Assembly (NCBI GenBank): GCA_023129535.1
Contig: JAGMBW010000040.1
Location: forward strand, 1-51,625
From: Desulfobacterales bacterium
GTDB taxonomy: Bacteria; Desulfobacterota; Desulfobacteria; Desulfobacterales; C00003060
Length of the DNA stretch: 51,625 bases
Reading direction: 5' to 3'
Both the position numbers and the translations under genes were made by a program. The notes beneath the pieces are model-generated. The model searched no databases. It had not been told where the DNA came from and saw nothing but the letters and a program-made list of their open reading frames with translations. Positions 32,309 through 40,986 of the stretch are shown here, piece by piece (position 1 is the stretch's first letter; each line of letters starts with the position of its first letter).

Positions 32309-33019
32309 CTATAAGTGTCGGTATTTCTTAGGTTCGCCTCTAAGATCTTTTTTTAGTTTCCGGTAAGCCCGCTTGATCCAGCGTGACACTTTCTCCACCA
32401 CTGTTCTGTTGTAGTATTGCCTGTCTTCATCGACTATATTTTCGAACTTTCGGTTATACTTCAACTTCACCCAGGCGTTGAAATCAAATTTCCTTGCAAG
32501 GTTATAGAGATAGCGATTTAGAGGTGCAAAACCAGGTTTACTGACGATAGCTACGCCAAAATCGATCATACAGGGCGCCCGTCCTTTGACGACGAGAAGG
32601 TTGTCCTTTTTCTTGAGATCGCCATGCGCCACACCCGCCTTGTGCAGCCCTTTGATCAGGTTCAACAGTTTTTCGAAAAACATGCCGCGATCCGTAATCC
32701 GGGATCTTCGTAGCGGAACCCCGTTGATGCATTCAAGCACCAGGTAGCGCCCATCCAGAATGCCGTAACAGCGCGGCACACCGCGTACTTCAGATAACCT
32801 GGAGTAGGCCCTGTACTCGTTGCGCAACATCACCCGCCGGATGAGCCCGCCTAACCCCCACCCCACAGGAGCCTTGAGTATTAGACGCTGACCTTTGCCT
32901 TTATACAGATAGACATGGCCCTGACTACCGCGGCTAAGAATGTTCGATTTGGTTTTGACGCTGCTCCTGACCCACTTAAGGAGCTCGATTTCGGTAAGGT
33001 TATCCAGCTTCTTCAACAT
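32309..33019 (-). CDS. Protein-kinase-fold LPS kinase-like protein
   Basis: A 236-residue kinase of the Kdo kinase/RIO-like group. The glycine-rich loop SRGSQGHVYLYKG is at about residues 29-41, the ATP-binding Lys49 is in LILKAP, the catalytic loop HGDLKKKDNLLVV is at 132-144 (Asp134, Asn140), and the metal site is Asp153 in MIDFGVA. All key residues are present. I chose ATG 33019; upstream in-frame codons lie in the methyltransferase gene in another frame. GTG 33028 is an alternative. It is the last gene of the minus-strand cluster. Phosphorylation of a core sugar is the likely role; a protein substrate cannot be excluded. Confidence 0.75.
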   Translation of the reverse strand: MLKKLDNLTEIELLKWVRSSVKTKSNILSRGSQGHVYLYKGKGQRLILKAPVGWGLGGLIRRVMLRNEYRAYSRLSEVRGVPRCYGILDGRYLVLECINGVPLRRSRITDRGMFFEKLLNLIKGLHKAGVAHGDLKKKDNLLVVKGRAPCMIDFGVAIVSKPGFAPLNRYLYNLARKFDFNAWVKLKYNRKFENIVDEDRQYYNRTVVEKVSRWIKRAYRKLKKDLRGEPKKYRHL

Positions 33020-33035
33020 CGACGGCACGGCGGGT

Positions 33036-33608
33036 TCAATGCAGCCCCATCCAGAGGAAGTAGAGCCAAGACAGTAAAAATAGGGCGATAATGGGCTCAC
33101 CGTTATCCCGCAGGCTTTGCATGAACGACCAACTGCCACGTTGGCCGGGCTGATAGGGGGTAAGGCGTGGAATAAGCCCCTGGGTCTCTTTGCGCCATTG
33201 TTCCCACTCCTCTTTAAATCTGCGATGAAGCTTTTCATCTTCTCGACGGATGGCAGGAGGATAAAAGGCGAGCAACATCCCTATCAACAGTGGGAGACTC
33301 CACCATAAGCTGGAGGCAAGGGCAAAGCCAAATCCCAACGTGAGGTTGCCCACATATAGAGGGTGCCTGACATAGGCGTAAGGCCCGTCGGTGGCAAGGA
33401 TCTTGTTCTTTTTAATATGCCCTGATGCCCACAGGCGCGCTGCAATACCCAGGATAACCAGCGCTGCACCAGCAACGAACAACATTTCCTTTGGTTCGCC
33501 TGCAACACTGGCCAGGATGATAAAGGCGATGCCAAGGAATTGGCGGAAGCGTTCCCGGTGGTATCGGAGATCGTGAAGAAATCGTTGCAACCCGAAAGCT
33601 GTTGCCAT
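33036..33608 (-). CDS. Isoprenylcysteine/phospholipid methyltransferase-like membrane protein
   Basis: A 190-residue protein with about four hydrophobic helices (22-36, 40-60, 88-115 and 170-187). The motif DGPYAYVRHPLYVGNLTLG at about 73-91 and the later REDEKLHRRFKEEWEQW are the S-adenosylmethionine-binding signature of the ICMT/PEMT family. It methylates a carboxyl or amino group of a membrane-embedded substrate, which is not identified. It lies between two LPS-kinase genes (19 nt after one, 16 nt before the other), so the substrate could be an LPS or lipid headgroup. Confidence 0.78.
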   Translation of the reverse strand: MATAFGLQRFLHDLRYHRERFRQFLGIAFIILASVAGEPKEMLFVAGAALVILGIAARLWASGHIKKNKILATDGPYAYVRHPLYVGNLTLGFGFALASSLWWSLPLLIGMLLAFYPPAIRREDEKLHRRFKEEWEQWRKETQGLIPRLTPYQPGQRGSWSFMQSLRDNGEPIIALFLLSWLYFLWMGLH

Positions 33609-33627: not shown

Positions 33628-34335
33628 TCACCCCACTTCGTAATCCTTCCGAAGCCCTGCGCACATCATGTCGCAGAGCATCTCCGGCAACCGATGCTTG
33701 ATTACAGCACGTCGCCAACGACTAAGGTAATGATCTCGTAACTTATTTTTATTGTGCCGAGGAAGACGGGCCTTGTCAAAATCAACGAGAAATACCCGGT
33801 CACGACTGTCCACTAACACATTGCCAGGATGCAAATCGACATGAAAGATATTGTTATTGATAAGAGTGGAGACCTGATCGACGACCTTTTTCATCGCAAT
33901 GTGAGCATGTTCCTCATCTGCACAACTGAGTTCAGCAAGTGTTTGTTTCTGTTTAATCTCTCTGGTTACCAGCCACGCTTTATAGAACAAACTGCCCTGG
34001 GAAGCATAGGCAATCGGCTCGGGGGCATTTACACCGAGGCTCCTTACTTTCTGCAATATCTCATACTCAATCTGACAACGCGTTTTGCCCCACTTCAGGT
34101 ACCTTCGTTTGACCAGGTATCGAATAAGCCCTCCACGGGTATAATATTTGATGACTACCGATCCTACCCCTTCAAGCTGAGCAATAGTAACCGAGCTTCT
34201 TCCGCCAAGGACCGAATCAACAGTATTTGTAGGGGTATTAAAGAGTCTGATGAGTTGCTCCAATTGTCGGGCAGTAAGATCAGATGACGATCCGAAATGA
34301 TACGAATCATATATTTTGGTTAGTGCCTTACTCAT
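33628..34335 (-). CDS. Kdo kinase-like protein (KdkA/InaA family)
   Basis: A 235-residue protein with a Kdo/heptose kinase fold. The ATP-binding Lys63 is in VVIKYYTRGG, followed by the typical arginine-rich segment. The catalytic loop FHVDLHPGNVLVD has Asp167 and Asn172, and the metal-binding Asp185 is in FLVDFDKARL. It fits KdkA or related core kinases that phosphorylate Kdo or heptose with ATP on the cytoplasmic side. Its start overlaps the stop of the upstream glycosyltransferase by 4 nt (ATGA). Confidence 0.82.
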   Translation of the reverse strand: MSKALTKIYDSYHFGSSSDLTARQLEQLIRLFNTPTNTVDSVLGGRSSVTIAQLEGVGSVVIKYYTRGGLIRYLVKRRYLKWGKTRCQIEYEILQKVRSLGVNAPEPIAYASQGSLFYKAWLVTREIKQKQTLAELSCADEEHAHIAMKKVVDQVSTLINNNIFHVDLHPGNVLVDSRDRVFLVDFDKARLPRHNKNKLRDHYLSRWRRAVIKHRLPEMLCDMMCAGLRKDYEVG

Positions 34336-35339
34336 TGAATATCTAGCAATTTCTCAGTCGCGCTTATTACTTCAAGATGTGAAAGTTCCTTCATGCAAGC
34401 CTCAGTCCCTGTCGGGCACGTTTTTCCCCCGTGTCGGCTGCAAGGCCTGCAAGGAAGGTCCTTCTCCACCACAACTGCCTTATTCTTCCAGGGATAGAAG
34501 CCAAATTGCGGGGATGTCGCACAAAAAATCGCAACGTTCGGAACCTTAAATGCAGAAGCAATATGAAGGACCATGCTGTCGTTACACACAACCAGCCTTG
34601 CATTTTTTATGATGTACATCGTGTCTGGAATACTCGTTTTTCCTGCAAAATTGCTGACTTCAAGTCCCTGAGCCACCATGGCGTTTACCTTTTCATCTGA
34701 CGGCGCTCCCAGGAGAACGACCGCAAAGCCTCGTTTGAGCAAGAACTGAGCTACCTCACGATACCCCTTCCAGTGCCACATCTTGGTTTTCCAAACACTT
34801 CCGGGCACAAGTACCACATAACCACCAGGCTGAGGCAACATTCTGTTAACCTCATTGTCAAGCTCGTTTCTCAAAGGCGGGAATAAACGCAGCTCCGCTT
34901 CCAGTGACTCGAGAGGAACCTCCCCGGAAAGCAATGACAGGTTGCGAACCACGTCATGGTCGCCAGAATTTCGTTCTCGTATCTCATGATAGAGAAAGTT
35001 AAGCTTGGCATTCGCAAATCCGATGCGAACAGGAATGCCGCAAAGCCAGAGCAAAACCGATGTGCGGGGAGAACGATGAAGCGAATACACCCTGTCAAAC
35101 CTCATCGCCATGATTCGACGTTTCATTCGCAACAGACCGGAGAATCCTGCATCCTTCCCTCGTTTATTGTATGTAAGAACTCCAGCAAGAAGTGGATCGC
35201 GCATCACCAGCGACGAGGCAAGTGGCGTTGTCATCATCCAGAGCTCAGCATCGGGATAAATCTTTTTGATGCCAGAGATAACAGGAGTAGAAAGAATTGT
35301 ATCTCCCAGGAAACTTGTCTGAACGAGAAGTATCTTCAT
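34332..35339 (-). CDS. GT9 heptosyltransferase-family protein
   Basis: A 335-residue GT9 enzyme: MKILLVQTSFLGDTILSTPV at the start, VVLVPGSVWKTKMWHWKGY in the middle and LVVCNDSMVLHIASAFKVP with the nucleotide-sugar contacts. Usual ADP-heptose transferases carry NDSGxMH; here NDSMVLH varies, so the donor may differ. It is separate from waaC/waaF and probably adds an outer-core heptose. Coupled to the kinase gene downstream by an ATGA overlap. Confidence 0.85.
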   Translation of the reverse strand: MKILLVQTSFLGDTILSTPVISGIKKIYPDAELWMMTTPLASSLVMRDPLLAGVLTYNKRGKDAGFSGLLRMKRRIMAMRFDRVYSLHRSPRTSVLLWLCGIPVRIGFANAKLNFLYHEIRERNSGDHDVVRNLSLLSGEVPLESLEAELRLFPPLRNELDNEVNRMLPQPGGYVVLVPGSVWKTKMWHWKGYREVAQFLLKRGFAVVLLGAPSDEKVNAMVAQGLEVSNFAGKTSIPDTMYIIKNARLVVCNDSMVLHIASAFKVPNVAIFCATSPQFGFYPWKNKAVVVEKDLPCRPCSRHGGKTCPTGTEACMKELSHLEVISATEKLLDIQ

Positions 35340-35364: not shown

Positions 35365-36441
35365 CTATTTCATTCGTGCAAGGAGTCTCTCAACGGCACC
35401 CAAAACATCCTCCACCTCAACCGCTGCCATGCACGTCCGAACCCGGCATCCCATTTTCCGGCAGGGGCTGCAATCGACACTTCTCCGCACGACCTCGTGG
35501 GGGGAGTAGGGACCGGGTTCGTTCTCGGTAGGATCCGTTGGCCCCCAAATTGCCACCACAGGGGTACCGACAAGGGTTGCCATGTGCATGGCGCCCGTAT
35601 CTGATCCGATATAGACATCGCTCTGAGAAAGAATGTACGCCAAATGCAGCGGCGTTTCCGTCTTTGGCGCGATGCGCACATCCTCCCTGCTTATCTCAGC
35701 TATCTTGGATACGAAGTCGAGTTCGTCCGGTGCCCAGGTGAATAATATCCTCCCGTTGAAACGTATCACAATTTGGTCGGCAAGACTTGCATAGCGGTCT
35801 GAAAACCACCTCTTGTAGATGGCCCGGGCACTGGTCCCGGGATGAATCGCGAAGATATGACCCCCTGGGGGAAGTTGATCGAAGAAAGGCGAAAGCTCAC
35901 CTACAATACGGGATGGGAAGTGAATAAGCGCTTTCGGATTCGGCTTGCATCCGCCGAGATACTCCGCAAGCGCCATATTCCTCTTGTACCTGGAAAGTTT
36001 CCCCTCCGGGAGACTCACCTTCTCGGTGTTGGCCAGGTGGCTGAACTCCTTCGTGCCTGTTGCGTCGTAACCGATTCTGCGTCCAGTTTTTGCAAGCAGA
36101 GATACGGCGGCGCTCTTCAGCACCCCGTGGAAGTCAACGACCATATCGTAGTCGGTAGACCTGAGCCTCTTGACAAAGGAGCGAAACTGACGCGCGGTGC
36201 GTATAAATCCCGCAGGAGTGAGGAAAATCCTGCGCCACAGCCGGGTTGCAAAAACGAGGACCTGATGTATGGCAGGGTGTCCGTTGAGGAAAGATGCCCC
36301 AAGGGTCTCGGTTACCCACGTGATCTTGCTTCCCGGGAAGGCATTGGATATGGAAACCACGGCAGGCAGCGTACGGACAACGTCTCCAAGCGCGCTTAGC
36401 CTGATCACCAGGATCTTTACCGCGTCATCGCCATTTTTCAT
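35365..36441 (-). CDS. GT9 heptosyltransferase-family protein
   Basis: A 358-residue GT9 enzyme with VKILVIRLSALGDVVRTLPA, VVDFHGVLKSAAVSLL, IHPGTSARAIYKRWF and VYIGSDTGAMHMATLVGTPVVAIWGPTDP, close in type to WaaC. I chose ATG 36441 because it overlaps the stop of a 52-codon frame upstream (ATGA); a longer frame from 36579 has no support. A Cys-rich tail (CSPCRKMGCRVRTC) ends the protein. A core heptose or related sugar transferase. Confidence 0.86.
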   Translation of the reverse strand: MKNGDDAVKILVIRLSALGDVVRTLPAVVSISNAFPGSKITWVTETLGASFLNGHPAIHQVLVFATRLWRRIFLTPAGFIRTARQFRSFVKRLRSTDYDMVVDFHGVLKSAAVSLLAKTGRRIGYDATGTKEFSHLANTEKVSLPEGKLSRYKRNMALAEYLGGCKPNPKALIHFPSRIVGELSPFFDQLPPGGHIFAIHPGTSARAIYKRWFSDRYASLADQIVIRFNGRILFTWAPDELDFVSKIAEISREDVRIAPKTETPLHLAYILSQSDVYIGSDTGAMHMATLVGTPVVAIWGPTDPTENEPGPYSPHEVVRRSVDCSPCRKMGCRVRTCMAAVEVEDVLGAVERLLARMK

Positions 36442-36596
36442 ATCAGTATGTAATTGAGCTTGTCGCAAATACAGTCGTCGAGGAGTTTCTTGAATGTCTC
36501 CATCTCCATCAATTGAATCTTGCTTGTCAGCTTCTCGCGGGGGCAGATCGTGCAGCGCGCTGGGACGATCCCGTAGCATTTCGGGAGTTTGTTCAT
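36438..36596 (-). pseudogene. 52-codon remnant resembling a radical SAM N-terminus, coupled to the GT9 gene
   Basis: Starts at ATG with AAGGAG 10 nt upstream and ends with a TGA overlapping the next ATG. The residues PARCTICPREKLTSKIQL and METFKKLLDDC resemble the beginning of radical SAM enzymes, but the first Cys of CxxxCxxC is missing and the protein ends before the barrel. Either a deleted gene whose start and stop signals were retained, or a leader peptide that couples translation. I favour the deleted gene. Confidence 0.5.
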
Positions 36597-36643: not shown

Positions 36644-38083
36644 TTAAATTAAGTTCAACTGCTTAAATTTTTTACGAAAAAGCATGTTAACATCTGAGTC
36701 GTTATCCCATCCCTGCAAGAACTCCAAAACCCCCTTGGCCACGCTGGAACGGCTGAAAAATGCCGCCTGGTTCAATTGCACGACATCTAGAAATATGGGC
36801 TCTAGATCTGAAATAAGAATATTTGTGCTGTGCACCCCGCGAACGGCGATACCGGTTTGTTTCATCGCAAGAAAAACTTTTGCAATCCGCTCCGTTACAG
36901 AGTCCTTATCGTCGTCCGACACAGAATCAGACGCGAAAAAATCCCGCGCAAGGATTCCATCGCAGGATTTCACTATCAAAAAAGCACGCCATATTCTACT
37001 ATTTTCCCGTTTCTCAATCAGGGCAATCGGACGAGGGGTATGTATTCCGAGCCGGTTGAGCCGCAGTGCGTTTCGCCATCTTCGGGAAATAATACCGTGT
37101 CGCCTAAACAAACGATTGCCGAAAACACGGACCGAATACAAGGTAATCGGTACGGCGTCAATCGACAGATGGCAACAATGATTACTATCCAACTGCTGGC
37201 CATTAGTGTCGGATATAAATCGTTCTGGATTCTCGCAAACCAACGTGAATTCATCGTTCCAAACTCTACGATCACGCACTGAAAAATAATCGGGCGCTTT
37301 GCATACCAAGAACGGATCCCGTGAGCGAAATATCTTTCTCATGTATGTCGCCAGGTGGCGCTTCCGCATGCGTTTGACTATTCCAATTAGCTTTTGGGTA
37401 TCCCCTCCAGTCACGTGCCACCCTCTTACCGAACAATAAGCCTGGTAATGCTCAGCAATCGCGGCATCATGGATTGGCGAAAAATAGGATAAGAATGCGG
37501 CCAGATTTGCCAGTGAGGGGCGTTTACTTAAGGGGTGCAAATAGATACGTACCTGGTCCCCATCAAGCGAGTAAATTTCCTTGCCTTGCAACAAGAAATT
37601 TCCCATGTGTACATCATTTTGAACTATCCCTTGTTCATGCTGTCTGGCCAAACATGCCATGAGCTGATCAAGCAATTGTTGCCTTTGAGCCTCATCAGGA
37701 GCGTCGGCTAAAGCTGTATCAAACCGAACGGCATTTTCAATATACTCGAATACCATCACGTAGAGGTCATGTTCAGAAAGATACCCGGAAAACAGTATCT
37801 TCGGGGCAGTGAGGGAGCACTCAACAAATACTCGACAACCCCTATCACTTCGCTGCCAGTGGATCTTCGCTCGTCGAGGATCGAAATAGAGTTTTACGAC
37901 GACTTCATTGCCGCCAATCTCACCCAGACAAACAATCCGCTTACCTCGGATGGCTCGAAAAACCCGAGTACAGGTGATAGTCCCGATGGATGGTACGTCG
38001 AAGGCGAATGACGCTGCCCTCCCGGTTCGAACATGGTCCTGGGTTACGTTGGCAAGGGCGCTCTTTATGGACATAACTGCCAT
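36644..38083 (-). CDS. Tandem LPS-kinase protein: active-type kinase plus degenerate kinase
   Basis: A 479-residue protein with two Kdo/heptose-kinase-fold domains. Domain 1 (about 20-240) has Lys64 in VVVKLYFDP, the catalytic loop QNDVHMGNFLL (Asp157, Asn162) and Asp174 in SLDGDQV; Gln replaces the usual His, but the chemistry residues remain. Domain 2 (about 270-479) resembles the separate kinase at 40145-40900. Arg replaces the ATP-binding Lys (YSVRVFG), Gly replaces the catalytic Asp (VRGVHSTNILI), and only the later Asp (IFLDVVQL) remains, so it should be a pseudokinase. ATG 38083 is preferred (38074 and TTG 38128 are alternatives). Membrane-associated cytoplasmic LPS core kinase is likely. 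Confidence 0.78.
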   Translation of the reverse strand: MAVMSIKSALANVTQDHVRTGRAASFAFDVPSIGTITCTRVFRAIRGKRIVCLGEIGGNEVVVKLYFDPRRAKIHWQRSDRGCRVFVECSLTAPKILFSGYLSEHDLYVMVFEYIENAVRFDTALADAPDEAQRQQLLDQLMACLARQHEQGIVQNDVHMGNFLLQGKEIYSLDGDQVRIYLHPLSKRPSLANLAAFLSYFSPIHDAAIAEHYQAYCSVRGWHVTGGDTQKLIGIVKRMRKRHLATYMRKIFRSRDPFLVCKAPDYFSVRDRRVWNDEFTLVCENPERFISDTNGQQLDSNHCCHLSIDAVPITLYSVRVFGNRLFRRHGIISRRWRNALRLNRLGIHTPRPIALIEKRENSRIWRAFLIVKSCDGILARDFFASDSVSDDDKDSVTERIAKVFLAMKQTGIAVRGVHSTNILISDLEPIFLDVVQLNQAAFFSRSSVAKGVLEFLQGWDNDSDVNMLFRKKFKQLNLI

Positions 38084-38152: not shown

Positions 38153-39205
38153 TTACTGGTAAGGTCGGGTTAACTTGCGATATACATGATCATAAGCCTT
38201 GGCCATTAAAGGGACATTAAAGTCTCGTTCCACTAGACTATAAGCCTGTGTGGTACAACGACGACGCAAATCCGGATTGTCCAACATTCGAAGCAAATCT
38301 TGCGCAACCTTCTGCGGGTTTTTCACCGGGGCTAATAATCCTGTTTGCTCATTTACAACGAGCTCGGGTATTCCGCCGGCCGCAGTCGCGACAACTGGTA
38401 CACGATAGAAAAATGCATCCAGAATGGCGCTACCCAACCCCTCTGCCTTGGACGTCATCAGAAAAACGCCAAAAATCGGATAATAGGAGTAAGGATCATC
38501 CTGGTAACCTTCGAATACAACGTTATCAAGGCCCAGTTCTTTGGCCTGAGCCTCCAGCTTTACTCGAAGAACGCCGTCTCCGATCAATACAAAGACGACG
38601 TCATTACGCTGTTTATTAACAAGGGCCGCGGCATCCAATAACGTAGTATGATCCTTACGGCCTTCTAGTGACGCTATACATCCCACAACCTTGCGGCCTG
38701 AAAACCTTTTTTTTAACTCCTGCACCTTAGCAGGTTCGGCCTTGTTTTCTAAACTGATCGCACTATGAATTACAGTGATAAGGGCGGGATCAAAACCCCA
38801 ATCAACCATGACCGACCGGATCTTCCTGGAGATCGCGATTAGTCGGTCCGCTTGTTTGTATATAAAACGCGTGAACGCGTGATGACTCGGCATATTATCA
38901 ACGCGCCGCGTAAGAACGAGGGGTCGCCCGTGGAAAAATTTCCAGAACGCGGCAAGTTGAAGACCCCGGACTTCATGAAGTTGAATAATATCAAAATGGC
39001 GGAGGAAAGGGCCGTGCAACAAGAATGGCTTATTGATGCTTTTTACGCTAAAGCCGCATTTTAATGCCCGTTGCACGAACAAATCGTTTTTGCGCGCTAG
39101 TAGATGGTTTTCATAGCCTATATCTCTAAGGCCCTTCATTAGATACAAGGTTTGTCTTTCGCCGCCTCGCCAACCACGCTCGAGATTGATGTGCAGGATT
39201 CGCAT
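38153..39205 (-). CDS. GT4 glycosyltransferase
   Basis: A 350-residue GT-B enzyme. It starts MRILHINLERGWRGGERQTLYLM (a common start in LPS-core glycosyltransferases). DRLIAISRKIRSVMV precedes the linker, GCIASLEGRKDHTTLLDAA is the donor-binding start, and MTSKAEGLGSAILDAFFYRVPVVATAAGGIPE contains the acidic catalytic/binding residues (EGLGxxxxE-like). It starts 5 nt after the GT2 gene stop; an earlier in-frame ATG at 39232 overlaps it. It transfers an unknown core sugar. Confidence 0.88.
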   Translation of the reverse strand: MRILHINLERGWRGGERQTLYLMKGLRDIGYENHLLARKNDLFVQRALKCGFSVKSINKPFLLHGPFLRHFDIIQLHEVRGLQLAAFWKFFHGRPLVLTRRVDNMPSHHAFTRFIYKQADRLIAISRKIRSVMVDWGFDPALITVIHSAISLENKAEPAKVQELKKRFSGRKVVGCIASLEGRKDHTTLLDAAALVNKQRNDVVFVLIGDGVLRVKLEAQAKELGLDNVVFEGYQDDPYSYYPIFGVFLMTSKAEGLGSAILDAFFYRVPVVATAAGGIPELVVNEQTGLLAPVKNPQKVAQDLLRMLDNPDLRRRCTTQAYSLVERDFNVPLMAKAYDHVYRKLTRPYQ

Positions 39206-39209
39206 CGGA

Positions 39210-39989
39210 CTATCGATTACGTCGATTTTCAATTGTTATTTGAGTTAATTTTGCCGCCATTACCAGCTCAGCAAATGAAGACATGGCCGCGATCAGGAAG
39301 CCGCGCCACCCATCGAGTATACCCAAACGGAGCACGAAATCCTTAAAAAAACGATACGGGGGACGCAACACCAGGTGCAGAACCGGCGCCGTCACTCCTT
39401 TCTCAAACTTATCTTCCGCCTTCCACGACGAATAACGGTTGATCTTGGCTACCCAGGCTGCCATGGAAGAAACGGTATGGTGATCAAGACGAGCCGTGAG
39501 CACTCCCGTATTTTCGAGTTCTACCTTGGCGTGGACACGCTTCTTCTGATAGCGCCCAAGACCCCTACGAAATAAACGGAGCACACTGTCATCGCCCCAA
39601 CCAGAATGTTTGATGCACTTACCCATGAGATGATTATTTCGCCTGATCAAATATCCGTCCTTATCCGGGCCTCGCCGCAATAGTTCCTGAATCTCATCGC
39701 GCAGTGCCGGGGTTACCCGTTCGTCACTGTCCACGATCAAAACCCACTCGTGTTTCGCTTGGGGAATCGCCCAGGTATTCTGTGCGGCGTAATTGATATA
39801 TTCATGCTGTAAGATTCGATCGGTATATTTCCGGGCAATATTCAAAGTCTGGTCAGTGCTGAAGGAATCTACTACGAGGATCTCGTCCGCCCACATCACA
39901 CTTTGAAGACAGACTTCGATGTTTTTTCCCTCGTTGTAACACGGGGTAATCACCGTGAGCTTTTGCTGCTGATTCTTTTTAACGCTCAT
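39210..39989 (-). CDS. GT2 core glycosyltransferase, WaaE/KdtX-like
   Basis: A 259-residue GT-A enzyme: LTVITPCYNEGKNIEVCLQSV at the start, DEILVVDSFSTDQTLNIARK, then the metal-binding motif VLIVDSDERVTPALRDEI and FRRGLGRYQKKRVHAKVE. These match the WaaE/KdtX group, which add a glucose to the first heptose of the core. The last third has a hydrophobic, arginine-rich membrane-facing segment (RPPYRFFKDFVLRLG). The start overlaps the stop of a deacetylase remnant (ATGA). Confidence 0.88.
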   Translation of the reverse strand: MSVKKNQQQKLTVITPCYNEGKNIEVCLQSVMWADEILVVDSFSTDQTLNIARKYTDRILQHEYINYAAQNTWAIPQAKHEWVLIVDSDERVTPALRDEIQELLRRGPDKDGYLIRRNNHLMGKCIKHSGWGDDSVLRLFRRGLGRYQKKRVHAKVELENTGVLTARLDHHTVSSMAAWVAKINRYSSWKAEDKFEKGVTAPVLHLVLRPPYRFFKDFVLRLGILDGWRGFLIAAMSSFAELVMAAKLTQITIENRRNR

Positions 39990-40144: not shown

Positions 40145-40900
40145 CTAATCTCGATAATTGATGCCTACATCTTTCAATAGGCCCCGAAACAAAGCATCAG
40201 CCTCAGGATAACGTTGCCAACTTTTCATTAACGGTCGCCAACAATTCCGGTAAGCACGTCTAAACGTGAACAACCACCGATGTACTTGGATAGCATCCAA
40301 GTCTATCATCACAGGTCCCTGCGGCGATATGATGAAATTCTTTGCTTTTGTATCCCGCTGAACAATACGGGCCTGCCCCATTCGAACGATGAGATCTACC
40401 AACGCCTGCCCCATAACTTCCTGTTGATCAGGGTCAAGCTCAGGTGACGTGAAATATGTCAATGCGTCCGGCCCGGCTACCTCCTCAGCGAGAAAATAAG
40501 CACGTGAACGCAAAGGGCCGTAGCGTTCCTCAATCATGCCGACTGGAGGTGCGGTGGGAACGCCTATGAATTGTAATAAGTGGGAATTACGCCAAGAAAT
40601 CGCAGCACGCGTGGGTTGTATTGCTCGTTTCAGTCCATGCCCGAAATTCTTTATATTGTATCGTTTCAAAACCAAGCGACGACCATCCACCTCCACGAGC
40701 GCCACTGTTGCCGAATGTCCCCGCTTCAACCTTGCTATCGCCACTTGCATATGCGCATCCGGGTCTGTCAACAAGGAGCTTAATGCGTCGGATTCATATT
40801 CTCGCCGGTAAAGAGTCAGGCGACCAAAAGACTGACTACAAGCAACAGATGCACTTTCTCTGAAGACTTCGCTGAGATAATTCTGCACCAGGTCAGTCAT
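40145..40900 (-). CDS. LPS core kinase (RfaP/InaA-like)
   Basis: A 251-residue Kdo/heptose kinase-fold protein. Lys79 is in LVLKRYNIKN, the arginine-rich segment RAAISWRNSHLLQFIGVPTA follows, the catalytic loop is VQRDTKAKNFIIS (Asp183, Asn188) and the metal site is MIDLDAI (Asp200). It resembles WaaP/InaA kinases that phosphorylate inner-core heptose. It is the first gene of the minus-strand cluster; ATG 40900 is preferred to GTG 40909. A consensus promoter lies about 90 nt upstream. Confidence 0.82.
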   Translation of the reverse strand: MTDLVQNYLSEVFRESASVACSQSFGRLTLYRREYESDALSSLLTDPDAHMQVAIARLKRGHSATVALVEVDGRRLVLKRYNIKNFGHGLKRAIQPTRAAISWRNSHLLQFIGVPTAPPVGMIEERYGPLRSRAYFLAEEVAGPDALTYFTSPELDPDQQEVMGQALVDLIVRMGQARIVQRDTKAKNFIISPQGPVMIDLDAIQVHRWLFTFRRAYRNCWRPLMKSWQRYPEADALFRGLLKDVGINYRD

Positions 40901-40986
40901 GGATATCACGGATACGCTTCGTCGTCACCACCAATAATCGCATTAATGATAAATGAAATGATAAGAATTCCCTTTTGGGTCATATG

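Follow-up and report, generated by a model that had tools for sequence, protein, structure and literature searches.

A tandem kinase of a lipopolysaccharide-core gene cluster with a predicted pseudokinase as its second domain

Introduction

Why would a protein that carries one apparently competent kinase domain retain a second from which the catalytic residues have gone? The question is raised by a gene in the window analyzed here, a stretch of 51,625 nucleotides from a Desulfobacterales bacterium (contig JAGMBW010000040.1). The original prediction described its product as a kinase-pseudokinase tandem. That architecture is borne out: the catalytic set of the first domain (D1) is complete, and the second (D2) is without glycine loop, ATP lysine, and catalytic aspartate. 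The gene sits in a lipopolysaccharide (LPS) inner-core cluster, flanked downstream by two heptosyltransferases and a Kdo-kinase-like gene and upstream by a GT4 glycosyltransferase, a GT2 glycosyltransferase, and a separate kinase. The relevant features, all on the reverse strand, are as follows.

36644..38083 (-): tandem kinase-pseudokinase coding sequence (D2 predicted inactive), 479 aa from ATG 38083, or 494 aa if TTG 38128
37352..38080 (-): D1, first kinase domain, aa 17-259; 311.8 bits on the D1 profile; motif KDND
37271..37408 (-): inter-domain helix and linker, aa 241-286; DSSP of the AlphaFold2 model gives H241-265, E273-278, E281-286
36650..37345 (-): D2, degenerate kinase domain, aa 262-493; 251.1 bits on the D2 profile; motif N-GND
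36959..37093 (-): alphaC-beta4-beta5 segment of D2, aa 346-390, where the degenerate domain is most conserved
38153..39232 (-): GT4 glycosyltransferase directly upstream of the kinase tandem; Pfam PF00534
39210..39989 (-): GT2 glycosyltransferase, a conserved neighbor in the window's tandem branch; Pfam PF00535
40148..40909 (-): stand-alone D2-type kinase, about 2 kb upstream; 241.5 bits on the D2 profile, 318 bits with A2; GKDND, all catalytic residues present
35365..36579 (-): heptosyltransferase (GT9) downstream, LPS-core context; PF01075 at 3.3e-33; TIGR02193 147 bits, below the cut-off of 185
34332..35339 (-): second heptosyltransferase; TIGR02195 132.9 bits, just under the cut-off of 134.6
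33628..34335 (-): single-domain kinase resembling Kdo kinase, also in this cluster; PF06293 69.8 bits; NF002475 99.4 bits, cut-off 142

The stop codon occupies 36644-36646, and the frame is open back to ATG 38083 or TTG 38128. The ATG start originally proposed is the likelier one, since the sister gene in genome G002 (74% identical) begins at the same residue and residues 1-15 of the 494-aa form are predicted to be disordered. Residue numbers nevertheless refer to the 494-aa form (P0001, TTG 38128 start). Further downstream in the cluster lie a fourth kinase-like gene (32309-33022; PRK12274-like, 45 bits against a cut-off of 372) and, paired with it, an adjoining gene for a small membrane protein (33036-33608); a similar pair occurs in locus L067.

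Catalytic residues of the two domains

In a 67-row alignment the catalytic set of D1 is complete, as had been claimed, and consists of K79, D172, N177, and D189; the profile alignment likewise reads KDND. The alignment also agrees with the original reading of D2 at two positions, namely that glycine (Gly431) stands in place of the catalytic aspartate and that the later metal-binding aspartate is retained (Asp448). Asn436 is retained as well, and in the profile alignment the glycine loop is gone. One detail of that reading fails. The arginine of the motif YSVRVF had been taken as the substitute for the ATP lysine, an assignment rejected on alignment register: in the window the column of this lysine (Lys in 65 of the 67 rows) is occupied by Thr329, and R334, the arginine in question, aligns to the second lysine of a KRYNIK motif. 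In the profile alignment the ATP-lysine position is a gap, and the G002 sister gene is without arginine there. With both the catalytic lysine and the HRD aspartate lost (Thr329, Gly431), a state common to the window's branch of the family, D2 is a predicted pseudokinase, catalytically dead as judged from its residues.

The resemblance of D2 to the separate kinase at 40145, also part of the original prediction, is confirmed by a whole-genome search (24% identity over D2 residues 322-491, E = 1.4e-11) and is far above chance; both score above 240 bits on one D2 profile.

Intact and degenerate tandems among homologs

Seven of 60 relatives carry tandem homologs, the window's own genome being tallied separately, and further tandems were collected from searches of 297 and 389 genomes. 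Motifs were read in 53 tandems: both domains are intact in 42, D2 is degenerate in seven, the D2 C-lobe is absent from two, and the remaining two have an intact D2 together with asparagine in place of the D1 catalytic aspartate. In the named genome_contigs scan a tandem is present at 76 of 80 loci and fully intact at 73 of the 76, counts that are biased because the scan looked for intact D2 motifs. The other three are L102, with a degenerate D2, L164, with Asn in D1, and L125, where the contig edge truncates D1; the four loci without a tandem (L115, L129, L154, and L159) have D2 alone, and three of these four lie at contig edges. The 53-tandem and 76-locus counts are not independent, as some genomes occur in both (for example L102 and L068). 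Excluded from the tandem counts were L094, L095, and L096, whose D1 or D2 score lies outside the tandem family, and the contig-edge fragments L090, L092, L093, L184, and L185. In the GTDB genus of Pseudomonas lopnurensis the tandem is present in 56 of 56 genomes, with both domains intact in all 30 examined. An intact D2 is the common state of the tandem family as far as motifs tell.

In the window's own genus just 3 of 22 genomes have the tandem, and the copy in G017 is intact and comes from another branch. The gene is thus patchy in this genus, probably through exchange of core loci.

Several variants of the architecture were encountered. The reciprocal case, with the D1 catalytic aspartate replaced by asparagine and D2 intact, is found at L052:549-1979 (G434, also L164) and L089:9106-10554 (G335), so that either module can be lost. 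In L065:480-1709 (G561) and L066:1554-2780 (G549) D2 stops after the N-lobe. Tandems with an extra N-terminal part, 706-985 aa in total, occur at L139, L144, L150, L152, L155, and L171, and in L139 this part matches the D2 profile at 60 bits. An LPS-type tandem kinase at L148:9299-10753 comes from a record bearing the title Candidatus Nitrosopumilus salaria; since the tandem groups with a Methylophilaceae sequence, that contig is probably contaminating bacterial DNA.

A single branch with degenerate D2

The window's branch has 11 members (the window, G002, G363, G128, G347, G680, G681, G682, G251, G295, and G696) spread over four families; four of the 11 were added by searching the G128 and G251 families. 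D1 reads KDND in all 11, and none has an intact D2 set. The D2 states are diverse, among them N-GND, D-SND, G-DDN, GKGHN, GSREA, and G-REG. In trees built from D1 only, where decay of D2 cannot pull the degenerate tandems together, these tandems form one group (7 of 7 at 98/98 and, in a larger tree, 10 of 10 at 100/100). For the larger tree 17 near-copy names were removed by hand, and G696, the D2 match columns of which equal those of G295, was left out. Midpoint rooting places the root adjoining the degenerate group, so that the 10-row D1 tree alone is silent on which state came first; loss in D2 would be the derived state on the argument that the intact residues are those of active kinases.

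According to the original prediction, homologs with a fully catalytic second domain would reduce the window's degeneracy to a local mutation. Such homologs exist and are the majority (42 of 53), and that part of the claim stands. The conclusion drawn from it does not, since degeneracy is common to 11 tandems, 10 of which form one branch of the D1 tree. A local mutation is rejected on that branch, and a sequencing or assembly error is rejected because the D2 loss is common to the 74%-identical sister and nine further tandems. All 11 branch tandems are single open frames through D2.

Part of the neighborhood is also shared. The order GT2-GT4-tandem is found in G363 and G681, both glycosyltransferase genes lie near the tandem in G347, and GT4-tandem is found in G680, G682, and G128. 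The GT4 homologs are 48-59% identical (beside the tandem in G363, G128, G680, G681, and G682, near it in G347), and the GT2 homologs, 53-68% identical, adjoin the tandem or lie close to it in G363, G681, and G347.

Selection, conservation, and predicted structure

Between the window and the G002 sister dN/dS is 0.25 (0.17-0.38) for D1 and 0.27 (95% interval 0.18-0.41) for D2; for the pair G251/G295 it is 0.17 for D1 and 0.31 (0.19-0.43) for D2. The D2 values of 0.27 and 0.31 indicate that D2 is conserved as protein under purifying selection. Amino acid identity of the window to its sister is 0.70 in D2 and 0.79 in D1, and in the alphaC-beta4-beta5 segment of D2 it is 0.85. Among the dead D2s of nine branch tandems the mean pairwise identity is lowest in the P-loop/beta3 region (0.16), highest in alphaC-beta4-beta5 (0.33), and 0.20-0.23 in the C-lobe, whereas intact D2s have 0.54 in both of the former regions. 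Both C-lobe-deleted tandems (L065, L066) retain the D2 N-lobe.

The AlphaFold2 model of the window protein is confident and has two domains (pLDDT 89.9, pTM 0.87; an intact relative gives 94.1 and 0.90). In this model D2 is without the lysine-bearing beta3 strand, but its other elements follow one another as in a kinase. The D1 half can be aligned to the heptose kinase WaaP (6dfl; Z 16.5 over 206 residues, rmsd 4.0) and was grouped with PRPK/Bud32. The structure comparison with the PDB mostly covered D1, and a kinase fold for D2 is supported by the D2 profile score of 251 bits together with the model. A search of the PDB with the D2-family profile gave 6dfl as best match (E 8e-8); when the window protein by itself was searched against PDB sequences, the matches were weak ones to eukaryotic kinases only (best E 0.035).

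The stand-alone D2-type kinase

The intact kinase at 40148-40909 suggests that the reaction once performed by D2 may have been taken over by a separate gene in some lineages, a possibility that the original prediction did not raise. In whole-genome searches run with a D2 alignment, a stand-alone D2-type kinase was found in 3 of the 13 genomes whose D2 is dead or cut (the window, G363, and G549) versus 0 of the 44 with an intact D2 (Fisher p 0.01, a value that ignores relatedness, the window and G363 sharing ancestry). A smaller table of 3/9 versus 0/43 gives p 0.004. The 13 genomes are G000, G002, G128, G347, G251, G295, G363, G549, G561, G680, G681, G682, and G696, and the 44 comprise 43 from the first whole-genome search plus G689; G369, G627, and G634, where one half of the tandem was seen, were left out of the Fisher table, and a D2 fragment of 103 aa that abuts a contig edge in G450 was not counted as a stand-alone gene. 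The whole-genome searches detected no stand-alone copy in 10 of the 13 genomes, of which G002, G561, G681, and G696 are at most 90% complete and could conceal one. With 10 of 13 showing no detected copy, compensation by a stand-alone kinase is not general; as a general explanation it is partly supported at most (3 of 13).

Nor are the stand-alone copies one lineage, an idea rejected because the D2 tree needs at least three changes. Among them just the window and G363 are sisters (100/99) in this tree, the bootstrap of which is not fully settled; it was built from 75 of 84 D2 rows, with the degenerate D2s omitted. The complete stand-alone kinase of G549 (L067:7981-8682) lies among core genes on a contig other than that of the tandem. 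Another stand-alone D2-type kinase occurs at L091:9347-10138 in G369, a genome in which D1 was not found.

Family membership and relation to known systems

The whole tandem protein belongs to the Kdo/WaaP kinase family PF06293 (44.1 bits, cut-off 21.3; by stretch, D2 26.1 and D1 20.2 bits), and an LPS-core sugar is its putative substrate from gene context and family. NCBIfam equivalog cut-offs were not reached in comparisons with RfaP (18.7 against 170 bits), RfaY (30 against 248), and KdkA (25.8 against 142). The protein thus falls in the family of the Kdo kinases but outside the KdkA model; with WaaP/RfaP, the heptose(I) kinase, it has in common the kinase fold of D1, but WaaP is single-domain and the window protein is a tandem falling far below the RfaP model.

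We define as PA5006-type the family with D1 and D2 in one open reading frame of about 450-550 aa, located in an LPS-core cluster and usually, though not universally, intact in both domains. The window protein has the two domains (311.8 and 251.1 bits) and the location, and departs from the usual state in D2 (D1 KDND, D2 N-GND). The likeness to PA5006 of PAO1, a two-domain architecture in an LPS-core cluster, is drawn by gene order. The excerpt of PMC8005017 gives the PAO1 order as waaP-wapP-wapQ-PA5006-wapO, with PA5006 a putative kinase. In P. lopnurensis, where genes were identified by eye from translations, the tandem is flanked by three single kinases on one side and a carbamoyltransferase on the other, the same order as in that excerpt. 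Unlike the window protein with its dead D2, the 30 tandems from the P. lopnurensis genus are intact in both domains. Two-hybrid data in the portion of PMC8707732 consulted report that PA5006 self-associates and that its fragment aa 300-493 binds the membrane protein PA2576; the fragment is a single clone, and its start inside D2 is judged from related tandems.

Bacterial Ser/Thr pseudokinases, reviewed in PMC12599244, are likewise protein-kinase-fold domains with catalytic residues lost, but D2 belongs to a sugar-kinase lineage; the terms lipopolysaccharide, WaaP, Kdo, and tandem are absent from the main text of that review. The JAK family and plant TKPs also have one competent and one degenerate kinase domain per chain. 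The comparison extends to the way of working only, as the window tandem is probably, judging from the families, of separate origin within bacterial LPS kinases. In the open-access literature searched, no biochemical data or report of activity was found for any member of the tandem family, and no description of a pseudokinase within an LPS-core kinase.

The role of the degenerate domain

The reading we prefer, at a probability of roughly 60%, is that of a two-site LPS-core kinase whose D2 has become a pseudokinase and been kept in a non-catalytic role, most likely structural or docking. Architecture, motif states, single-branch origin, purifying selection, and the stand-alone kinase were computed directly; the structural or docking role is inferred. 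The gene would belong to a widespread two-domain inner-core kinase family (PA5006 type, by gene order). Because both modules have a full catalytic set in the common form, this family is probably bifunctional and would phosphorylate two core positions. In the window's branch D1 would remain a competent kinase, to judge by its residues, and D2 would have turned pseudokinase, leaving a kinase with one site and a pseudokinase module that has been kept. The former reaction of D2 may be performed by a stand-alone D2-type kinase (the window, G363) or may have been abandoned (most other members). D2 would be kept as a folded, non-catalytic module most likely since D1 needs it for stability, for positioning, or for docking on the core-synthesis machinery. 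A precedent for a stabilizing partner of an LPS kinase is WaaP, which the excerpt of PMC6147952 describes as unstable without its tightly bound acyl-ACP partner.

A more specific form of docking starts from the PA5006 self-association reported in the consulted portion of PMC8707732. Dead D2 might serve as a platform that recruits the active kinase 40148-40909, a former D2-D2 self-association having become a pseudokinase-kinase heterocomplex and a bifunctional enzyme having been split over two genes; we consider this improbable. That D2 instead holds the lipid A-core for phosphorylation by D1 is unlikely. The kinase from which D2 derives presumably bound this core too, and the alphaC-beta4-beta5 segment is kept, yet the substrate and acyl-ACP contacts of WaaP are in the C-lobe according to the excerpt of PMC6147952, the C-lobe of dead D2s is less conserved, and L065 and L066 are without it altogether. 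Allosteric control, in which D2 would switch D1 on and off as JH2 does in JAK kinases, is rather unlikely despite the covalent pairing with an intact kinase and the retention under purifying selection. The nucleotide-binding part is the least conserved of D2, with no conserved ligand site; Foldseek matched the TYK2 kinase/pseudokinase (4oli) at an rmsd of 20.6 and a TM of 0.25, leaving a shared arrangement unsupported; and constitutive core biosynthesis would have no obvious need of a switch. The domain order of JAK differs from that of the window tandem, which counts against this reading as well.

It is quite improbable that D2 is a functionless, decaying relic heading for deletion. Two tandems have lost the D2 C-lobe, the intact stand-alone copy would make the window's D2 redundant, and the window and its sister differ more in D2 than in D1; but the dN/dS of D2 has an upper bound of 0.41, all 11 frames are open through D2, and the state is old, extending over four families with D2 still at about 200 residues. 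AMPylation- or glutamylation-like activities are known in pseudokinase-fold proteins (cf. SidJ), and the window keeps Asn436 and Asp448, but no catalytic column is conserved across the branch, which makes a non-canonical catalyst extremely improbable. Overall the data favor some non-catalytic role of D2, be it structural, docking, substrate-binding, or regulatory; the intramolecular regulator and the acceptor-binding module of the original prediction would be candidates among these.

Conclusions

The window tandem is a real, conserved, and under-studied variant, neither an isolated mutation nor proof of regulation. Forms with both domains intact, with D1 dead, with D2 dead, with D2 truncated, and with the two modules split coexist and constitute a natural experiment, in which comparing core phosphates would assign the target of each module. 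In the window's branch we would have a clear example of an LPS-core sugar kinase that holds on to a pseudokinase domain, and with it a test of whether a dead kinase domain must support a live one in core assembly.
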